Shown here in pieces: positions 1 through 64,000 of a stretch of 64,000 nt of DNA. The notes beneath the pieces were generated by a model. The model was not told the origin of the DNA. It was given only the letters and a program-made list of their open reading frames with translations, and ran no database searches. The stretch spans positions 306,892 to 370,891 of the forward strand of contig WELB01000132.1 of NCBI GenBank assembly GCA_009602725.1. The letters run 5' to 3'. The position numbers and the translations under genes were made by a program. Origin of the DNA: Spirogloea muscicola (Eukaryota > Streptophyta > Zygnematophyceae > Spirogloeales > Spirogloeaceae). The stretch's first letter is position 1, and every line of letters begins with the position of its first letter.

Positions 1-93
1 CAGCCTTCCCAATCCAGACCCTCAGGCATGCAGCACATTCAGGGCCAGACCACCAGAAGAAGAAGGTAGTGGACTCTCTGCAGCCGGCTTGAC

Positions 94-1709
94 CTGAGAA
101 TACTCAGTCTTTGCGTTGAAAGTGGCACTGTTCTCCACAAGCGCCTGCACAATCTCACCGCCCGTTGTGCCCTCCCTGCGCTGCTGGTGCGTGCATCAAT
201 CAGTCTCCGTGCCTGAAGCCAGGCGTCCAAATTGGCTAGACAATGAGGCTTCCAGCAAGACACAACCCGCCAGTGTCTATCCAAAGAGAATGGACAAAGA
301 GAATGCAAAGCCTGCCGATAGCAGCAGAGACACGTGCACCGAGAGCCAGGCTTGTATATTATGTGAGAGCTCTGGAAACTTGCAGCCAAGCACATCCCAA
401 AGTGCAGGCTGTGGCGTGCTTCACCTCCGCATGCGCAAGATGTCATCCTCTGTCAGCGCCTGAGCCGTGTTGGTGTCAGAAAGGGATCGGTTGTCCTTGT
501 CCTGCATATCGGCATTGGCTGCGGCACTGACGCCTGCGCCCTTTGGGGCCTCGTTGCTGCCGCTGCTCCCTGAGAGCAGATTTGCACGACGCGTGCAGAC
601 GACCCTCAGCACGTTGGGCACTCAGAACAGCTCTAAGTCAGTGCGAATGGCAGGAGGAGATCTACTTAGCGACTCAGAGTGAGCGTCTGGCATTTAGTAC
701 GTGAACAGTCTGCGGAATGCAAGGTTAAGAGCTATGATGGAGATGTCATGCAAGCAGCCTTGTAGCCCTAAACCCCTAAACCCTACAATCCTAAACCCTA
801 CAACCAAGACCCTAAACCCTATCGAAGTGACCACGGAACATGGCGCGAGGCACAATCGCCGCAGCATCCAGCCACAACTCGCCCAAGTCACTCAGCTCAA
901 GCCCTGGACCGCCCTGGCCCCCAACATGAGCCCTCCTGGGGCACAACTCATGTCCTATTTGGGAGCTGCAGTAATGGACACCCCTTTCCTAAGAGCTAAG
1001 GCCCAGCGGTGGCAGCCTCAAGAACATGGGAAAGCCGACTACTTGCTTCCAACTGGTGGTCTCCAGCAATCCGGCTGCAATCCATGTCATGCAAGCCCGC
1101 TTTGCCTCCAGCCGGCATGGCCTGCCGGGTCTCGTATCGCAAGGACAGGAAAGGTGACGCACCGTCGAGCTTCACCAAATGAGCTCTGCCGTCGCGGTTG
1201 CTGTCGGCGGTGCACAGCTCAAAGGTGGCGCCGAAGGGGCACCCGACGAGCTCCACGAGGTCGCACGACGCCTTGCCCACCCTTAGCTTCCTGCAGCCGC
1301 CGGCGCTCATCCATCAGAATGAGACTCAGCTAACGAGGGCTCACACCGTCTCAGAGGTTGGCAATCTGGCCATTGAGTAAGTAGGAATCTGTTTGATGTC
1401 AAGAATAGGGTTTAGCATGGGGATGCGGGATACACGCCGGGACTTGCGGCGGGATGTGCGGCGCGGGTGGCGGGGGCCAGACCCGCCGCGCCGGACGGTG
1501 ACGAAGGACTGCCGCTCCCCGTTGACGTCGACGAGCACGGTGGAGCCCTCGGTGATGAGCGCTCCCGGCGCCGCTGCCGCCACCGCCGCCGCCTGCGGCG
1601 CTGCCTCTGCCGCCGGCAGCTCCTCCGACGGCGGCGTCGGCGGCGGCGGCGGCGGAGTCTCCGTCGCGGAAGCCGCCGCAGCGCCCGCCGCACTCGGCGG
1701 GGCCGCCAT
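94..1709 (-). CDS. TRM6: TRM6-like non-catalytic subunit of tRNA (adenine58-N1) methyltransferase, 3' end beyond the window
   Basis: TRM6 (Gcd10) pairs with the catalytic subunit TRM61 to make m1A58 in tRNAs, including initiator tRNA, in the nucleus. Four exons can be joined on the minus strand: 1709-1483, 1290-1163, 569-425 and 175-94. All have GT..AG introns and matching phases, giving 194 codons before the frame leaves by another donor. The N-terminus is Ala/Pro-rich, then comes the family's first beta barrel (GSTVLVDVNGERQSFVTV, then KLRVGKASCDLVELVGCPFG). The diagnostic block is DNRSLSDTNTAQALTEDDI, continued by EIVQALVENSATFNAKTEYS, which closely follows TRM6 proteins of plants and animals. 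The start is the ATG at 1709, the only clear Met ahead of the conserved part. The methyltransferase-fold half is missing because the window ends. It is divergent from the kinase-like gene on its right. Family assignment is firm; the exon 2 donor at 1162 was chosen because only it keeps phase. Confidence 0.85.
764..823. repeat. Degenerate plant-type telomere repeats inside a TRM6 intron
   Basis: Several CCCTAAA/CCCTACAA units, imperfect, lie inside the intron between the second and third TRM6 exons. The motif is the complement of the TTTAGGG telomere repeat of most green-lineage genomes. A similar array lies in the first intron of the recycling-factor gene. Confidence 0.75.
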
Positions 1710-2282: not shown

Positions 2283-2733
2283 CGCAGACGCCCTCTCACA
2301 CCCTGGGCCCAGGCGGGAGCACCCCGAGCACCCTCTCGAGCCCGCAGCAATGCCTGGAGCTTGGCTGCAATGCAGGTGGGGAGTCATTGATATCAGGCAG
2401 TCACTGCCCAGTCTGCCGTAGGGTGCTAAGTGCCCCTCTTGCTTTCCTCTCGCGCGTGTTTTGACAGTCTAGCCAGCCCACTGCCGCAATGTGGCGGCTG
2501 CATACGAGGTCCGCCTCTGCCCCGCTCTTAACCACGTTCCACACTAAACCTGCAACTTTCTGCTCTGCTAGTCTTACAAAGAGGTCCTGGCACCCTCTTG
2601 TCACCTGCTCCATGCACAGGTCAGCCACAGCCGTTGCCGGAGGCACTCTTAGGTGAAGGTCGTGCCAGTGGACCGCTGAACTTTGTCACTTTGGTGGAGT
2701 CTGGCTGGATCTAGAGCTGGAGCATCTGCAGCC
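1710..2733. promoter_or_regulatory. Divergent intergenic region, GC-rich, with CT microsatellite
   Basis: This stretch separates the start of TRM6 (minus) from the first ATG of the kinase-like gene (plus), so it should hold both promoters. It is GC-rich to about 2210, then has a CT tract at 2214-2280 interrupted by one N at 2250, which marks an assembly join. No ORF here resembles a known protein. A non-coding 5' exon of the kinase-like gene could lie in 2300-2720. Confidence 0.5.
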
Positions 2734-5601
2734 ATGAGGATCATGAGGCCAGATCGCGAGGTCGCAGCTGCAACGTTCTGCATGAGCAAGCATGGGGAGC
2801 CGCAGCATGACTATGAGCTGCAGCAGAATGTATCACCGAACTCGGCCTTGTCCCAAGTGGGCCTGGCAAGAGACAGTCTAAAGCCCCACCCCAAGTACGC
2901 CATTATCCCCTGGACGAATACAGAGCGTGCCTTGAAAAAGGCTGGAGCAATGGGCATTCTCTGCACCTTCAGGGACCTCGAGACCAAGGAGAGAGTCGTT
3001 ATAAGGATGATGTGCGACGCCTTTGGCAACATTGTTGCTGCCCGCCGACTGCTTAGGTACTAAAGTATCACACTTTGGCATGTATGACTTGCTTGTAGAA
3101 CCAGCGTATTGCACAGCATATATGGTGTCATTGCTACTGCCTGCTATACATGTCGTCATTACTGTTTACTGATCTCTGACTACTGCAAGTCGCGACCAGA
3201 GGCCTCAATGTTTTGCTAAGACTTGTTGATCAAGATTATAGTTGTCATATCGTCCTCTCAGGGAGGTCACCATATTGTACCAGGCGCAGCATGAAAACAT
3301 CCTCGCCTTGAGGTGAAACACGACAGTCTTCCTGCCAGGACTTCATGACTGAAGATTATGTAAATTATAAATTTCAAAGCTCTTGAGCGAGAGCGAGTCA
3401 GTACATTCTTGAGCAGTAACGAGTCCGTGCATAGCTGATTGTTTAGTCAAGCTATTCTTCAGTGCTAGTAGTCTGGTCACATGCGAGTGTATGAAGGTCA
3501 GAACGCAACACATGCTGGAGAATGTGCTGAAGTGCCGTAAACAGTAAGCTGCTCAATCAAGTTACAGAAATGCTGACTTCCTGACGCTGCACATCTATTA
3601 ACCTCATTTCTAGGGACATTGTGATCAAGAGCAAACATCTGGAGCAAGTCAACGATGTATACTTGGTCTACGAGATGATGGACACCAGCCTCCACGACCT
3701 GCTAAGGATCCGGAGGCTTGAGGATGACTACTGCAGGTTCTTCTGCTACCAGCTCATGAGAGGGCTCAAGTATCTGCACTCTGCAGGTGTTGCCCACAGG
3801 AATCTGAAGCCGAGCACCCTGCTTGTCAATCTTGAGACTCTCGAGCTCCGCATCTCCGGCTTCTTTCTTGCTCAGTCAGTGCACAGCGCTGGAATGCGCA
3901 CAGGTCAGGTCTCCCTCATTGAATTTTAATGCATGTATCATGGCGAGGGCACACACTGATTCAGTGACAGTGCAGGCAATCACAGTCTGAATGGATGAGG
4001 GCTTGCGCAGCGATAGACATATCATGCTGGCCTCTCTCATCTAGTACGTGAGCTGCTGTCCCTGCACATGAGATATCATCTCATGTGCAGACGAATGGCA
4101 GGGCAGCCAACCATTAACTGACCGGCAATGAATGTGTGTATTGTGCTTGCAGAGTATGTTGCTGCAAAGTGCTATGACGCTCCAGAATTGCTACTTAGCT
4201 GCGGCCACTGTACCACAGCCGTGGATATGTGGTCTGCTGGATGCATCTTCCTTGAGATGCAAAGTGGGCAGCACATTTTCCCCAAAGCAAACAGTAACCT
4301 CCACCCTTTACACCAGGTGAGTCATGTATAATGGCCTCAGTAAGTCCGCCTACATAGGGGCAGCTGAGCAAATTCCACCCGCTTTAGTTCCAAACATGCA
4401 ATGTGTCTCCAAGTGGTTACGTTAGTAGCCTCGCCAGCACTGGAAGGAGCCACTGCCTATGGTCAATGTTGATGCATGAGATAACTATCATTATCACGTG
4501 ACCGTCAGAGCTGGCCAATCATGCAATATGAATAGTTTGCAGATTTCAGCTATTGCCAAGGTGATTGGATCCCCACAACATGGATCCGACCTCAATTTTC
4601 TGCAAGACTTTGAAGTGCAACATGATGTTCACAATTTTATAGGCGGCCATCCCAGATTGACACTTGCTTGTCAGTTTTCTGGCCTGTCCGACTTAGGTAA
4701 GAGGCTGCTCTGTGACGTCATGAATGCAGTGCCACCAGTGCAACTGTGAGCGTCAGATTCATGCATTAAGATGTGGGTGGCCTTTCGGTATTCGTGAGGC
4801 AGTGTATTCGTCATCTGCTGCTACGCAAGACTGTAGTGCCATCCCAGCTCATGGGCTGCAACAGTAAATTACAGGTCGAGTCAAACTGACTCGACCTGAA
4901 GATATCACATGGCTAGATGTCAGGACCACAACTCACAGAAATTGCGTCAGAACGTAGAATAAGTGACTGGCAAGGAGAAGCTCCCCTTCACCTAGCTGGC
5001 CGGCTCTCCACGTTGAGCCACGCCAAGCTAAGAGCACTTAAATTGCACAATACTGCAGCGGCTGACTTTGCGGAGAGGCTTCTCGATATCAACCCTTCAA
5101 AGAGGATGACTGCAGTGCAGGTGCACTTCGTATCTCTTTACTTCAGCCCAGCATCGCATATCCCGCCTGGTAGGAGCCGTGTATTCGATGGCATATTGAA
5201 TTTGCTTATCATGCTGCAGAGCCGCTTTGCTCGCAATTTAATCTGGTGGCCCAACATCTTCAGTGCATGGTAATTGCAAATGCAAGGACTTCATTGGTGT
5301 CTTGCAAAGCTGCAATTATACTTGCTGTCCGAGTATGGTCAGTCAAATGTCTAGCTCAATGGTAAGTCGATCGTTCGAAAGAAGGATCGCTTCTTTCGTA
5401 TCATGCACTCATTCATCTGATATTGGCCTGTCTTCTTGTCAGGCCCTGAGTCACCCATACCTGGCCAATCTCCGGGATCCCAGTGATGAACCTAATTGCT
5501 ACACGGAGCTCGCAATAGGGTTAAGAGATGAAGGCCTATCAATGGCTCAGATCAAGACTCAAGTGTTTCAAGTGGCATCCAAATATCGGTGCAAGAGCTA
5601 G
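2734..5601 (+). CDS. MAP-kinase-derived pseudokinase with intact TEY motif
   Basis: Seven exons join in phase: 2734-3056, 3262-3312, 3614-3903, 4153-4316, 4543-4696, 5059-5120 and 5443-5601, giving 400 aa. The order of motifs is that of a plant MAPK across the whole fold: beta strands 1-3 (KKAGAMGILCTFRDLETKER), helix C, YLHSAGVAHRNLKPSTLL, YDAPELLLSC, VDMWSAGCIFLEM, INPSKRMTAVQ, SHPYLANLRD and a C-terminal helix. Key catalytic residues are replaced. The VAIK lysine is Arg (VVIR), HRD is HRN, the following KPSN is KPST, and DFG is GFF. The MAPKK phosphorylation motif survives: the exon 3/exon 4 junction codon (G|AG) gives T-E-Y before VAAKCYDAPE. I infer a scaffold or decoy in MAPK signalling rather than an enzyme. 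The start is the first in-frame ATG; another upstream exon is possible. Several perfect hairpins sit in its introns and just past its stop. Confidence 0.85.
4062..4090. repeat. Perfect 13-bp inverted repeat in a pseudokinase intron
   Basis: The arms are CTGCACATGAGAT and ATCTCATGTGCAG with a 3-base loop, inside the intron after exon 3. Confidence 0.8.
4872..4898. repeat. Perfect 12-bp inverted repeat in a pseudokinase intron
   Basis: The arms are CAGGTCGAGTCA and TGACTCGACCTG with loop AAC, inside the intron after exon 5. Confidence 0.8.
5376..5398. repeat. Perfect 9-bp inverted repeat in the last pseudokinase intron
   Basis: The arms are CGAAAGAAG and CTTCTTTCG with a 5-base loop. Confidence 0.65.
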
Positions 5602-5659
5602 GTGACTTGCGATGTCACAGTATCTGCCGTGACTACTGAAAGTTGCCCGGAAGACCGAT

Positions 5660-5699
5660 GTGCTGTTGCCCATCCCAACGCTGGAATGGGCAACAGCAC
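5660..5699. repeat. Perfect 14-bp inverted repeat just past the pseudokinase stop
   Basis: The arms are GTGCTGTTGCCCAT and ATGGGCAACAGCAC with a 12-base loop, 58 bp after the TAG stop. It therefore probably lies in the 3' UTR and would fold as a stable RNA stem-loop. Confidence 0.8.
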
Positions 5700-5701
5700 T
5701 T

Positions 5702-8163
5702 CGGCTTTATCCATCTACAGCAACTGCTGGTCGAAGCGCCTCTTCTCTTTCAGAATATTCACATTCTTGCAGAGAAGCTACGCTTCAGGCTGATCAGCTT
5801 TTGCTTAAACTGTCTCTAGTTTCTTCGTAGTTGATGACCCAAAGACATTTAGCTGTGCCTTCTGCCTTCACAGCATGTGCAAAGTGAGGCACCTGCAAGC
5901 TACAGAACGGCAAGAAGTATGTTCTAGCTTACTAGCTCCTTACATACCCGACAATGCACGAATAGTGCATATTCCTGTGAGTATAAGTACGTGCCATCTT
6001 GACCTAGCATGTGTGGGTCACCAAAATGCACGGAAGAAGCGCCAATCAACCATTCATTATTCCAAGCTAAAAACTTACAGCAAGTAGATCCAGATTACGA
6101 GTGGCCGAATCACTTAAGCTTGCTCGTGTCTGCAAGTATACCATAAGTGACAAACGTAATGCTTTTGTAAGCATTACGTTGATCAAGTCATGTGCTGGAG
6201 GCAAAATTGTGAGCTACTCGCAGGAGAAGGCCTCCTGGCACACGCCTCGAGAGAGGTGAGAGTAAGCCAGAGAGAACGACTGGATCGCAGTTGGCTCAGG
6301 CAGACAGTCACTACTGAAGCCTCGAGCACCTGGCTCCAGGCTTTGAGGTTGTGAAGAAGCGGCCCTACAGTAACATGTTGGGACATCTGAACGTCGGGCC
6401 GTAGTAGTGATGGTTGGGGGCATTGGAAGGAAAGTTCGTGTATTTGAGAGAAACGAAGGCCAAATGGCCAAGTACAAAGGCAAGCACTAAAGACCTACAT
6501 AACCTACAGCACATTGACCCGCTCAGTAACCACGGGTCAAAACAATAAGGTGGCTAATCGATGCCTGAATTCTAGATGGCAGATACGAAGCCCTTTCGCC
6601 ACCAACTGGAGCTCGCCCAGCTTTCTGGTGCAAAGCATTAGCCTGAGCACGCTGCAAACAGGAACTCGTCATGGCAAGAACGACAAATATGCAGCTGGCA
6701 AGCCCATCTCAGCCAAGCATTGGAAGGGCTCCTCAGAGTCCTGCCTCAGCGCAACACTAAGAAGAGCATCATCAGAGAAGACTGTGAGGGCGAGGACGAG
6801 GACGAGGACGACGTCGAGGACGAGGATGAAGTAGAAGATGACAGCATACGCGACGCTGAGAAAAGGATGAGGCAGTGGCATAGGTGGGCATATTGTTGTG
6901 TTCATCACCTGCTGCCAGGCATCTTCGTGCTGTGGCATATGCGAGATTGTCTTCGTCGATGACATTCCTCAAAGATGGCGTCACCTATAAAAGTGAGGCT
7001 GGCTACTGGGGGCTTGTGGAAGAGATCGTTGGCAAAGCTGTCAAACGGCCATCATCAATTGCCCTCTCCTGAGGCTGTGTCGCGGCTAGAATTGCCTGCT
7101 GGCAGCGGACAGCATCTAGCTGGGGTGGCGGCTACCATATCCATGGCAAAAGCTTGTCACAATGCTCGCCTGCAGCGTCCTACGGCCGTATTATTAGTAG
7201 TTGCCAGTGGTCGAAATAGTGGCGAAGGTGGCGCCCGGCGACGGCGGCTGCCAAAACTCTGTCCTCTAAATCTTATGCAACCTGAAAGCCACTTCTGAAC
7301 TGAAACAGCGGGCGCACTCAGTCGGCAGGCCGCGCCAGGGGGCGTGGCGCTCAGCACTTTGGCAGTATGCCACCGGCTAGGTCGGATGGCACATGGTAAA
7401 TATACAAAAGAGCGTGGTTTGTGTGAGGAGCTAGTAAGCTAGAAGCTCGTTGCACTACAGTAGTTCGATTGTAGGCGCCTCTTGCGAAGGCGAATCTTTC
7501 GCCGAAAGCCTGGAGTGGAAAATACATATTCAGCGAATCCAATTTCGATCTAGTCGGCCTGAAGCGAGGTTCTCTGCATCATATGAGCATTCAGAAGGAG
7601 AAGAGGCGCTGCATCAGCGGTTTATGTCCCGGTCCACGTCCGTGTATTGCAAAGAGCTTCTAGCTGACTAGGTCCTCACACAGACCACGCTCATATGTAA
7701 TTTTAACATGTGTACTAGCTTGCATTGCATCTGCATAACTGCACCATGTGAGTGCCAAAATCTCCTTCATATTCATGTGCATGCCTATTGCATCACAGCA
7801 AGCAGACACCGAAAGGATGATGCCAAGTGTCCCGCTTGCTTGTTTGCTTGCTATTGTTCGCGAATATGCTACAAGGTAACAACTGGTTATTGTTGGTGGA
7901 AGCTTGATCATGGAGTTGCTGGAGGCGAGGTGTTAGCTTGCTCCTTGACAAAGTCCGATCAGCAGGAGGCCCGAGAGAGAGGTGAGAGTAGGTCAGAGAG
8001 AAAGACGCTTCCATGAGAAAGCGGTGGCTGGGAGAGGCTCAGCCCAGAAGAAAGAACGGACAAAGAGAGGACAAGTGGACCAGATGTCAACCCAACCTGA
8101 CAGCAAATCATGTCTGAGGAGGACATGTCAGCCCTCCTCCTACCTAAAGCGAACTGCTCGTTA
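5702..8163. other. Intergenic, no supported gene; hairpin, dispersed repeats and acidic triplet tract
   Basis: I find no ORF with recognisable protein features. A perfect 12-bp inverted repeat (AACGTAATGCTT / AAGCATTACGTT, loop TTGT) is at 6153-6180. A dispersed repeat at 6431-6545 recurs inverted at 30649-30765. A (GAGGAC)-like tract near 6785-6845 could encode an acidic stretch but has no surrounding gene evidence. At 7965-8060 there is a partial copy of the dispersed repeat family seen in the later blocks. Confidence 0.5.
6431..6545 (+). repeat. Dispersed repeat copy (partner at 30649-30765, opposite orientation)
   Basis: Shared landmarks in order are a GTTCGTGTATTTGAGA-like block, CCAAATGGCCAAGTACAAAGG, AGACCTACATAACCTACAG, and a hairpin TTGACCCG...CGGGTCAA at 6514-6540. 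The second copy carries all of them as the reverse complement. No ORF is conserved. It may be a short non-autonomous transposon. Confidence 0.7.
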
Positions 8164-9354: not shown

Positions 9355-12300
9355 GTGCCTCCGACGCGGTCGCGCCATCTCGCGGGCGGGGGGTCACGTT
9401 GCCTCCACGTGGCGAAGTATGAGCGGCTCGACCGACAACGGTCAGGCTTCCCGCGCAAAAGGCTTCCCTCACGTGCGCCACGCGAGCCGCCACGCAAGCT
9501 CCGCAACGGCCCGCCTTCGCGCGCTGATCTAGATCGCGATCGCTCGATCCGGACCGCATCGCGCGCGGCTCAGGACCGTCCGATGTCCGGCGCCTCCGAT
9601 GCCGCGGCGCCAACGAAGGGGCCCCCGCAACGAGGGCGCAGCCTTGCAGCTGGCTCGGAAGCCGACAGTCGCTTGACCTTATTCTGAGCCGTAGCAGCTA
9701 CAGCGCCTCTTGACATAAAAGCAAGGCTTGCATGGCGGTGGCATACCGCCGACGTGCTGAGCGCCACGCCGCCTGGGCGTGAGGTGGCCGCTCGCCGGCC
9801 GTGCCTGAACGCTTGCTGTTCAGATTCGAGGCAAGGGCTGCCAGCTGCCGCCAATGCCAACTTTGCTGCTGCTTCTGCCACTGTCTGCTTGCTGATAGAA
9901 CGGTCGCATGAGTCCGCTTCGCGAGCAGCGCAGCAGGTGGTGTCTATCGTGGAAAAGGTAGCGGCGAGGCCAGCTGCCAAGTGGTTCTTATACCATTGCT
10001 AAAAGCACGTCGTCTCTCCACCTTGACCTAGCCGTGCTGGCCCCGATGCCGACGTTGCCACGCTTCTGCCTACGGTAATCTGTGCTTCGCTGACTAAGAA
10101 GCCTACTGCTAACACCATGGACGCGGTGGTTACCGAGTGACGGCGTTCTCTGGCCTCACAAACGAGACTTTGCGCCTGATGCATCACAAGTCGGGGCAGG
10201 TCTGTCGCCCTCGAGGCTGCCTTTCTTACACAGGAGCTTGGTGGGCCACCATTTCCTGGTGAGCCGTGACTGCGGCAAAGGCTGAGACTTGAGGGCCACT
10301 GCACTCGCAGTTGGGCTGGGTCATTCCTTATTCTACGCGCTTCCCTGACTTTCCCTTCTGCACACAGCCACGCAGCCAGTCTCCTCCTGCACATCTTGAC
10401 GACGTGAAGCAGTTCAAAGGCCAAGCGTGCAAAGACGAACCTGACGCGCACATGCTTCTTCATACAGCCTCTCCGAGGCAATATACGAGGTGGCCATATG
10501 TGGACCCGCATCATGCCCATCAACCGGGGGCTGGCACATCACAGGCCGGGTTGACCTTGTCGGTTGTTCTGCGAGCGCCGAAGCCCACAAAATGTTGTGG
10601 ACATTGGCGTATGTAGCACACACACGTAGAAGTAATGTCCTATGGCATGTACAAAGGCGAGGCGCCGCTTGCTTCACAGCAAGTGGCATGCGTCGCCACT
10701 TTTAAGCAGAGGAAGCACACCTTTGAAGAACTTCAATGCCCTTAGCTGTCACACTACGGTGGCTCTGCCCACGTGTCGGAGCTGCTGAGCTCTGACACAG
10801 ATGCGTAGATTGGCGGAGTGTAAATGAGGGCCAGCGAAACGAGTTTCTACATCCTCGACTAGGCAACAAGAGGATGGGACTGCCTCAAGAGGCAGTGACT
10901 GTGAGCTGTCAGCAGCCAGCTGCAATTTTGAGGACAAGCATTGGCGTACGAAGAGGGCACGAAGGACGCACACTCCAGATTGGCTGCTGCTTTGACGGAC
11001 TCAATAGGCCCTAAATATCAGGGCAGGTAGGAAAAGCTAGGTGAGAACCTGCTCTCTGCCGGAAAGCTGGATAGAGCAGAGGACTAGCTGTCGACACTGG
11101 AGTTGGTTGCTAGCCCGCTCTGCACCAGTCACCGTGCGTGCGTTGCCAGCCGCAGCAGCAGTGCAAGTTGCTGACAGAGCAGGGAGCCTGACAGGTCAAA
11201 ATCCGCATTGGCAAATGTCCTCCACGGCTGTTATCACTCTGCCATGACGTACTTTAATCTCGGGCTGGCTGCTCAGAGCCATGCTCAAATCGAAGCACGG
11301 ACCGCCAAATAGTGGCAGGAAAGTGGTTAAGAAGAAATGACTCCTGCCATTCAGCGAGTGTCAAGGGCAGCAGCGCGAGCAGCCCGTCTTCAGGTGTACT
11401 AAGTAAAACTCTTCATCTCGCTCCAGCGTATACAGGCATTCAATTGGGGACTGCCGCCCCTGTGTTTCGGCGTGGCAACCTTCTTCCAGCTGCTAGATAC
11501 TCCGGGTTGCGGCTGTTGACTAGGTTCACCGAGCACCCATTCATAGTGTCCATTTGCGTAGCTGTGTAAAATGCACGCTTTCTGATTCTGTTGGACCTTG
11601 TCCATTCCTCATGGGCTGGCCTTTCACGGCCATCGCCCCCTTTAGAAGAACAACTACTCTGGGTGTGTGGGTACTAATGTCACACTGTTACCTTGGTCAC
11701 CTTCAAATCAGCCCGATTTTTTGTAATAGCTTTTGCCTGAAAGTATATTTTCGGCTTAAATCGGCCACCCTTCATTACATGCGCAGTGCGCGCCTTCTCT
11801 CTTACTCTACCCTTTTCCCTTCGGACCTTGTCACCTTCTCGGGCTGGCTGTTCCCAACTCTTGCCCCCTTTACGAGAGCCACTTTCTTTGGAGCATGGGT
11901 CGGGTAAAGGCGACTGTCAGCGGCTTCATCCCGGATGCATTGAAGGAGGACTAGCTGAAGGTGGTTGCAAATTGCCAGGGTCGGGCTAGCTACAGCGGCG
12001 GCTTCCGTGGACGCTGACGTGGCTTAACGCTGACGTCAGTGGGATTGAGAGTTGGAAGGTGGTGGGAAAGCGGTGGGCCAACCCCCATCGGCCGTCGGGG
12101 CCAAGGAAACGGGTCTGGACGAGATATGTGGCGATTAGATGGGCGCTACCACAACTACTGAGTGGTCCATCCTCCCCCCTTCTGCCATAGCCTCGTCAGG
12201 CCCCACAGTCGCTGCTTAGCTCGTAGTTTGGCCCCTTCGAACCTTGTCAATTCTTTTCGGGCTGGCTTCTCACAGCCCTTGCCCCCATTGGGAGAGCCAC

Positions 12301-12546
12301 TTCTTCCAGAAGCCATGTAGCCAACCAAGCGGCGGGAACGGGACCGTACGAGCGCGAGTTTGGCAATGGCGGGCAATCAAATGGGGCCACCGAAAGCTAT
12401 GTAGCCATTTAAGAGCCCTTGCCCCCTTGCCCCCATTGGGAGAGCCACTTCAATTTCCATTTAAGAGGCGCTCCACCACCCAACTCCCATCACTCGGTAC
12501 ACGCCTCCTAGCCTCCCCTCCGCGAGGAAGTTGCTGCCGCAGCGCC
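9355..12546. other. Intergenic, no supported gene; dispersed repeat copies toward the right
   Basis: The ORFs here have no recognisable domains. From about 11580 the GGCTGG-hairpin dispersed repeat appears several times (11585-11650, 11830-11890, 12140-12310, and a fragment at 12415-12452). The last copies end within 100 bp of the EF-hand gene start, so they may overlap its promoter. Confidence 0.5.
12140..12310 (-). repeat. Dispersed modular repeat, block A copy
   Basis: It is nearly identical to the copies at 30940-31135 and, reversed, at 26255-26400, 55860-55935 and 56080-56250. Landmarks are GTGGTCCATCCTCCCCC, CGCTGCTTAGCTCGTAGTTT, CGAACCTTGTCAATTC, the hairpin GGGCTG-GCTTCTCA-CAGCCC, and CCCATTGGGAGAGCCACTTC. 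Confidence 0.75.
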
Positions 12547-42383: not shown

Positions 42384-53853
<11,470 letters not shown>

Positions 53854-61664: not shown

Positions 61665-64000
61665 CTAGTATGCCGGCAAGATGTAGTCAGCAGCCAGCGC
61701 AGCAGAGCAGCACTGTTTGTCAGCTGAGTATGCCTCAAAGATGCTCAGGAGCCTGTCAAAGATTGGCTTAGCTGCCTGCGCGGCCACCATAGGCATTGCC
61801 TCCAGCTCCAGAGCGCCTGAACGAGCAAGTCCTTCCTCTGCAGAAGCTGCTGCCGGTTCTTGGCCATTGTCTGCTGCTGGAGCTGGACCATCAGAACGAG
61901 TTGCTGCATCAGCTGAATCTTCAAGCAGTGTGGGTTGCTGCGGAGCATGGCAGACTGCACATATGCAGGCACAGCCCGTGAGGCGGCCCTCAGCCTATAC
62001 ATAAACAGTGGTGAAAGACTGCCGAGATACATTGCTGCGGACCTGTGGCACCGGCGTCGTCAAGCAGTCGCTGCAGCTCCCGTGACCGCTGCTTCAGTGC
62101 GACAAACCCATCACCCTCGTTTCGTTCCACCACGTGCTCCATTTCGAGCAGGGGCCAGGCCTTTGGGGCACTGGCAGTGCTGGCGCTGCGCTTGTGATGG
62201 AGGTTGCGTTTCCAGTTCTGCACAAGGTTTGTCTGCAAAAGGCATTGCAAGCCTTGCTGCGCTGCCACCTGATGTCCCAGCTCGAGCAGGAGCCCTCCAG
62301 CCCTTGCCGAAGGCCTTGGCCAGACCATTGGGGAGTCATTGGCCTCATCGTTAGCTGGATGTCGTCCTCCGCCGCTGCCAGTTGTTGTCTGCCGAGGAGG
62401 CTTTGTGAGTGTCGTGCGCAAGTGGCTGGGGATCTTCTTGACGAGCTTCTGGGCGCGGCTGTGGGCCCCGAGCTGCAACATGCGGCGCTGCGCCTCGGCG
62501 TGTTGCAGCCTGCTGGACTCCGAGCAGCGGGTATCTTTGGGCTCCGCTCGCAACGTGGCCGCCAAGAGCAACGGCCTGTCGCGCTTGGGCCTTCGCCTGC
62601 GAGAGGCCCTGTTGAGGAGCGCAGGATCCTGCCGGCTCGCGGACGTGCTGACCTCCTCCCAGCCGCAGTGTTCACCCGACTGCTCCTGCTCGCCCTGCAG
62701 CCTGCTGCGGCCGTCCAGCCTCAGAGCTTGTGAGAGCCGCCCTGACTGGTCGTCAGCATGATGCCTGCGCTGGCTGCGCGCCACCTCAATCATGCGCCAT
62801 GCTCGGACTGAGCCGCCCAAGCTACCGCCTCTGGATCTCCCACGTTGCGGGCTGGAGTTGCCAGTCTGGCTGTTGGCCTGGGTGCCGTCGTCACTGTCTG
62901 ACAGTCGCTGGCAGCGCTTGTCATCATCATGCCGACTGCTTGACTGGTCGACCGGATGAGACGGGTCGCTGCTTTCGAGCCTCGGTATGGACTCACAGAT
63001 CACAAGCGCAAGCTTGTCCACTGGGGCCTGCAGAGCCTCCACCAGATGCTGCGGTTGGTCCCAGTCCATGGCATTGTAAAGCTCCTTGATCTCGTCCGGC
63101 AAGTCAGCCACGTAGCTGTATGGCCAAGGTCAGGGCCCTCTGTCAGCTGCATACAATCGAGCATTCGAGTAGCACAACAGGGCAAGCCTTCCTTGTGCTT
63201 TACGTGGCAGTAGAGCTGCGATGTTGCGTCAGCAGTATGCAGTAATGACAGCAGCTGGCAGCTTTGGGCGAGCTGATATACGGCGTCAGGATGTCGTCAG
63301 CGATGGCCTTCATGGTGGCCTCCGAGTGGAAGCGCAGGGCGGGGCAGGCCAGCAGGTCTGCGACCTCGTCCAGAAGCTGCTCGCCAGCGGGCCGCCGCCT
63401 CAAAAAGGTGGGTGCCATAGCCGGCTGCTCCCGGAGCTCCCGCAGCAGCTCCAAGCGCAAGATAATCTGCAGCTCCTGCCTGGTATGACGGTGTCAAGGA
63501 GTAGAGGCAAGGCAATCTATGGCGAGAGAACAGAACCCATGTGACGTCTCCTGATAAGATGACCCATGTAGTGGCGCAGACATCATATGCTCAGGAAAAT
63601 TGTGCCTCTGATAATGTGAAAGCCATGGGCGCAGCAGCCGCTGGATGCGATGCCAATGCACTCAGGCGATTAGAAGGCGAGGCGGCTGCTGACTGATAGC
63701 AGTGCAACAACCACGTCCAGGGACTGGTCTGACGGCGGCGGCGGCGACGGCGGGGTTTGAACCCGCGACCTCCGGCTTGACAGGCCGGCGCTTTGACCAG
63801 CTTAGCTACAGCTAAGCTGGTCAAACTTTTCTTTATTCGACGGCGATTTGCGGCTAACTTAGCGGCAACCGGCTGAGGAGGATACTCTCGAAACGTGGCC
63901 CGGCAGCGGGCGGGGTCGTCGCGGTCGGCGTCGGCGAGCGCCTGCCAGTCGCGCAGGTGGCGCTGGGCGAGCTCCCCGGGCCGCCGCAGGAGGCGCCGCC
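61665..64000 (-). CDS. Probable Treslin/SLD3-like DNA replication initiation protein, 5' end beyond the window
   Basis: Treslin/SLD3 helps load CDC45 onto origins in S phase. Exons that join in phase are 63475-63282, 63115-62043 and 61954-61665. A partial first exon runs from 64000 to about 63858 (possible donor CCG|GTTGCC). The recognisable part is the helical SLD3/Treslin segment: ELQIILRLELLRELREQP, then GEQLLDEVADLLACPALRFH, DDILTPYVADLPDEIKELYN and AMDWDQPQ. The long middle exon encodes a Ser/Arg/Gln-rich, probably disordered region with SDP, SSP and TLTK sites that could be kinase targets. The last exon ends LLSIFEAYSADKQCCSAAL..ILPAY-stop. The LQIILRLELL motif is the main basis for the call. 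Other parts of the family diverge fast, so this stays probable. Confidence 0.5.
63742..63815 (-). pseudogene. tRNA-Asp(GUC)-like sequence lacking its 5' acceptor strand
   Basis: The minus strand carries an A-box-like TAGCTAAGCTGG, an anticodon arm CCGGC-CTGTCAA-GCCGG with anticodon GTC, a perfect T arm GCGGG-TTCAAAC-CCCGC containing the B box, and a 3' acceptor strand CGTCGCC. The seven bases where the 5' acceptor strand should be (TTAGCTG) do not pair with it. It lies in an intron of the Treslin-like gene on the same strand. It could be a tRNA pseudogene or the head of a tRNA-derived SINE. Confidence 0.6.
63792..63825. repeat. Perfect 16-bp inverted repeat mirroring the tRNA D arm
   Basis: The arms are TTTGACCAGCTTAGCT and AGCTAAGCTGGTCAAA with a 2-base spacer. 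One arm is the D-arm region of the tRNA-like sequence; the other replaces its 5' acceptor strand. Confidence 0.9.

Follow-up and report, generated by a model that had tools for sequence, protein, structure and literature searches.

Introduction

Can a MAPK that has lost its catalytic residues and kept its activation motif still be a working gene, and what would its product do? The question is raised by the window, a 64,000-nucleotide stretch of DNA from Spirogloea muscicola, in which a MAPK-fold gene lies at positions 2734-5601 of the forward strand. MAPKs of the plant lineage have been studied mainly as enzymes. MAPK pseudokinases are already known as a kind, the example described as phosphorylated by MKKs being yeast Mlp1; among the matches listed from the open-licence PMC literature, none concerned a MAPK pseudokinase in streptophyte algae. 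Judged from sequence, it is highly likely that the locus encodes a constrained protein-coding pseudokinase, and its product probably functions by binding other proteins, not by catalysis, because catalytic residues are lost, the activation site is kept, and marks of selection are present in two copies. If selected, a MAPK pseudokinase with a TEY motif and a docking site would separate, in nature, the binding of MKKs and phosphorylation by them from the phosphorylation of substrates, and non-catalytic MAPK signalling would thereby become testable in the plant lineage.

Structure of the Gene

The gene comprises seven exons, every intron is bounded by GT and AG, and the joined exons give 1203 nt encoding 400 amino acids without an internal stop; both the gene ends and the in-frame exons are as originally predicted. 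The product consists of a 66-residue N-terminal extension followed by a MAPK-like kinase domain. Briefly, exon 1 (2734-3056) contains the start ATG, the extension, the Gly-rich loop region (KAGAMG, with two glycines retained and Y73M), the VVIR motif, and the start of helix C, and exon 2 (3262-3312) contains the end of helix C and the next strand. Exon 3 (3614-3903) carries HRN, KPST, and GFF and terminates within TEY; exon 4 (4153-4316) completes the E codon, supplies the Y, and also encodes APE and DMWSAGC. Exon 5 (4543-4696) encodes part of the C-lobe, exon 6 (5059-5120) reads ADFAERLLDINPSKRMTAVQ, and exon 7 (5443-5601) comprises the CD docking motif LRDPSDEPNC, the C-terminal tail, and the stop TAG.

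The acceptor of exon 6 was assigned by spliced alignment to Arabidopsis MPK4. Two acceptors 120 bases apart, 4939 and 5059, are both in frame in the window copy, and an exon 6 beginning at 4939 (4939-5120) was rejected because the alignment sets the acceptor at the later position. The 5059 acceptor drops an insertion of approximately 40 residues that no other row of the MAPK alignment contains; the MPK4 match is 264.9 bits in one stretch, compared with 247 bits in two stretches under the 4939 model, and the Pfam kinase score is 159.2 compared with 155. Furthermore, the frame of the second copy of the gene, on contig C19, opens under the 5059 acceptor; its frame-shifted appearance came from the 4939 model and was rejected, and a dN/dS of 0.38 between the copies, computed under the same wrong model, was dropped. 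For exon 4, the spliced aligner placed the end at 4325 in the window copy, and 4316 was retained as a strong donor common to the C19 copy.

MAPK Membership and Loss of Catalytic Residues

Among the 60 best of 136 PDB sequences, the best match of the product is Arabidopsis MPK4 (E 1.3e-77), followed by MPK6 (5e-74), with ERK1/2 and p38 ranking after these two, and the Pfam Pkinase model matches with E 1.7e-46. By its kinase-domain sequence, the product belongs to the MAPK family. MPK4 and MPK6, the closest solved relatives, share TEY and the CD motif with the algal protein at 40-42% identity over 314-315 aligned positions (calculated with the 4939 model of exon 6), whereas the algal protein has lost the four catalytic residues K, D, N, and D and three activation-segment arginines and bears a four-residue insert before LHQ.

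All four substitutions that were originally predicted are found in the translated seven-exon model: VVIR for VAIK (aa 88-91; K91R), HRN for HRD (aa 186-188; D188N), which HER3 likewise has, KPST for KPSN (aa 190-193; N193T), and GFF for DFG (aa 207-209; D207G), where G209 is lost as well. Thus, the catalytic Lys, HRD Asp, Asn, and DFG Asp of MAPKs are all replaced. A pseudokinase is defined here as a kinase-fold protein missing one or more of the VAIK Lys, HRD Asp, and DFG Asp; all three are missing in both copies, which gives the earlier designation as a pseudokinase its sequence-level support.

The extent of divergence was assessed over 94 columns invariant across 11 MAPK rows, namely four PDB sequences and seven from the same genome, the latter including two near-identical triplets and excluding the partial C48 and the CDK-like C328 sequences. 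Each pseudokinase copy retains 63 of the 94 columns, among them the helix-C Glu, the HRD Arg, APE, and DxWSxG, and the expectation of an otherwise intact MAPK fold holds to this extent; it does not hold for the other 31, which include arginines of the activation segment and, after TEY, the T-R-W / Y-R stretch. All four catalytic residues fall among the 31 changed columns (chance P 0.010, a modest value, and the rows are non-independent).

The canonical MAPKs modelled in the same genome comprise at least a TEY triplet (C346, C192, and C166), a second TEY type (C80 and the partial C48), and a TDY triplet (C24, C8, and C229). The two pseudokinase copies group together with 100/100 support, and their stem measures approximately two changes per column (2.27 in a 14-row tree using the 4939 model and 2.05 in a 13-row tree of different rows); with this long branch neither tree places a sister among the MAPK groups. 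The two TEY types, as modelled, share none of the six intron positions of the pseudokinase; one exact coincidence with the TDY type and one off by a base were considered too weak for placement. A single-protein query of IMG/VR, sensitive to close relatives only, returned no confirmed relative. Two further MAPK-like loci were observed: the C48 homeologue of the C80 MAPK (L041) has no N-lobe exon within 5 kb, and C179 (L047) has an N-lobe exon resembling that of C80, with no C-lobe recognisable after it. By sequence, both are broken or mis-assembled MAPK copies.

Activation Segment, Docking Motif, and Proposed Function

TEY occupies aa 221-223 in both copies and, as originally predicted, is rebuilt at an exon junction, exon 3 ending with the G of the E codon and exon 4 beginning with its AG (G|AG). 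The Val immediately after TEY is retained in both copies, as are the HRD Arg (R187) and the helix-C R108. By contrast, three activation-segment arginines are changed (R212Q, R227K, and R230D), and T226 and W228, located after TEY, are changed too. In ERK2, arginines such as these, both the two retained and the three changed, bind the phosphates of the activation loop. Because R212, R227, and R230 are lost, phosphorylation of TEY probably could not yield the usual active state, and their loss argues against a normal phospho-switch.

The CD docking motif of the C-terminal tail is recognisable at the sequence level: LRDPSDEPNC in the window copy and LRDPSDEPKC in the C19 copy, compared with LHDISDEPEC in MPK6. 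The core, DPSDEP, corresponds to DPTDEP in ERK1 and DISDEP in MPK6, and is less conserved in C80 (DPAVEP) and the TDY-type MAPKs (KVEREP) of the same genome. The CD site of MAPKs has been described as binding basic/hydrophobic D-motifs (PMC10605237, PMC4370755).

These features are best read as those of a MAPK paralogue that is non-catalytic and acts by docking, for which yeast Mlp1, the loop of which lacks the threonine, offers a precedent. Mlp1 (Kdx1), a pseudokinase paralogue of the MAPK Slt2/Mpk1, belongs like the algal protein to the MAPK family, and has been described as a catalytically inactive MAPK that is phosphorylated by Mkk1/2 and activates Swi4/Swi6 non-catalytically (PMC9106771, PMC8836261). 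Mlp1 is reported to be monophosphorylated (PMC9106771), whereas the algal gene retains the whole TEY. Altered catalytic residues are also described for HER3, KSR, and Tribbles, which act at least in part by scaffolding or allostery (PMC10605237, PMC4718504) and belong to kinase families other than that of the algal protein.

On balance, a conserved non-catalytic MAPK that acts through protein binding, with TEY and the docking site still in use, is favoured; the specific mechanism by which docking and TEY would operate is proposed more tentatively. The protein would be a MAPK paralogue that diverged, lost phosphotransfer, and now acts through binding, with little or no Mg-ATP bound. The acidic CD patch would serve as a docking site for basic D-motifs, whether in MAPK kinases, in phosphatases, or in substrates, and an MKK may phosphorylate TEY; since three activation-segment arginines are gone, such phosphorylation would at most alter binding. 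The net effect would be to compete with, or to assemble, the genuine TEY MAPKs present in the cell, and the features that partners would read, i.e., the TEY segment, the CD patch, and the fold, are those that survive. The role originally suggested, a decoy, scaffold, or allosteric partner, would fit the retained TEY and CD motif.

The chief rival, which is rather unlikely overall, is that TEY is a relic or a plain structural element in a conserved non-catalytic scaffold outside MKK signalling. It owes this position to the changed arginines, which suggest that a TEY phosphate would not lock the usual active loop; the loss of T226 and W228 and the long stem branch (2.05 changes per column) point in the same direction, whereas the retention of TEY, the next Val, and the CD motif in both copies argues for continued use of the site.

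A Second Copy and Evidence of Selection

A DNA search of the genome (153 Mb, 471 contigs) with window positions 2361-5700 found one other such locus only, C19:206684-210088, the remaining hits being short inverted matches within both loci. When 81 kb around the window was compared with 50 kb of C19 by blastn, a collinear block was found, broken by insertions, with identity mostly of 81-91% and a few pieces of 72-79%; because this block is shared, the two copies are taken as homeologues. All seven exons recur in the C19 copy, as do the four substitutions, TEY, and the CD motif, and the C19 protein differs from that of the window at 28 of 400 residues.

Between the copies, dS is 0.106 and dN is 0.032, giving a dN/dS of 0.30; synonymous differences number 26.5 and nonsynonymous ones 29.5, and a Fisher test on the rounded values gives p 4.4e-5. 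In the N-terminal 66 residues, dN/dS is 0.21, and in exon 3, 7 of 290 nt differ. Across 1625 aligned intron sites, 235 differ (14.5%), and the introns contain 24 gap runs, from which 17.8 gap runs would be expected in the coding sequence if exons and introns share one indel rate; none was found (P about 2e-8). When neutral evolution was simulated at the intron rate, divided between two lineages, 3.1% of 4000 copies were without stops. These values, taken from two copies within one genome, indicate that the pseudokinase has been under purifying selection since the block duplication. The constraint is looser than that on the canonical, presumed active MAPKs of the same genome: the kinase-domain part of the canonical homeologues gives a dN/dS of 0.011-0.101 in all seven pairs, and the value for the pseudokinase is 3 to 28 times as high. 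The dS of the canonical pairs is 0.068-0.195, and the two sets of duplications look similar in age.

It is unlikely that the gene is a duplicated MAPK that no longer has a function and is decaying as selection relaxes. A dN/dS well above that of canonical MAPKs and the long branch would be expected of such a gene; set against them are the absence of exon indels, a dN/dS nonetheless reduced to 0.30, and the open frames and intact splice sites of both copies under the 5059 model, with no frame-breaking difference between them. The shared substitutions, the dN/dS, and the lack of exon indels together indicate that the window copy is not a product of sequencing error and is hardly a decaying one.

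Less probable still is an atypical active kinase in which other residues serve Mg-ATP and act as the base. Precedents are described, namely Arabidopsis ILK1, listed among pseudokinases that bind nucleotide or have activity (PMC9403797), the disputed case of KSR with Arg for Lys (PMC10605237), and several other cases of nucleotide binding or activity in pseudokinases (PMC4718504), but here K, D, N, and D are all lost together, along with G209 of DFG, and their joint loss makes catalysis very unlikely. A sequencing or assembly artefact is scarcely credible, for although the assembly has gaps, one of them inside the third homeologous block described below, the second copy bears the same substitutions with introns that differ by 14.5%.

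Genomic Context

Genome triplication has been reported in S. muscicola (PMC7994812), and kinases and blocks of this genome occur in threes. A third homeologous block lies on C36, where the left flank of the gene (window 1-1638, with a plant-type telomere-like repeat near 770-830) corresponds to C36:803,162-804,810. A run of N (C36 794,052-803,161) begins exactly at the end of this flank. The right flank corresponds to C36 787,475-787,971, and only the left anchor is unique because a second similar place is found at 725,894-726,391. Loss of the third homeologue was considered and rejected, since the place expected for it on C36 is the run of N, where a copy may or may not lie. Extra copies of right-flank sequences (window 7.6-15.5 kb) were also observed at C36:717-726 kb and C19:283-290 kb, in addition to the homeologous places.

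Approximately 53 bases 3′ of the pseudokinase stop, a strong hairpin is located in both copies (window 5655-5704 and L039 7044-7093; the folded stretches score z -7.5 and -7.6). In a DNA search of the 153 Mb genome it was found at these two loci only, and it is possibly a 3′ UTR element or a small-RNA precursor. Further downstream, window 6431-6716 is an interspersed repeat of approximately 286 bases that occurs in at least dozens of places at 89-92% identity; as it is missing from the C19 homeologue and has an 11-base direct repeat on either side (6420-6430 and 6717-6727), the sequence indicates that it was inserted after the duplication. Another repeat, of approximately 154 bases (window 12153-12306), is present on at least 27 other contigs at 95-99% identity. 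On the reverse strand, Rfam reports a tRNA at window 63748-63810 (53.4 bits), where ARAGORN reports none, and the open frames at window 43000-48955 resemble a Prp8-type splicing factor.
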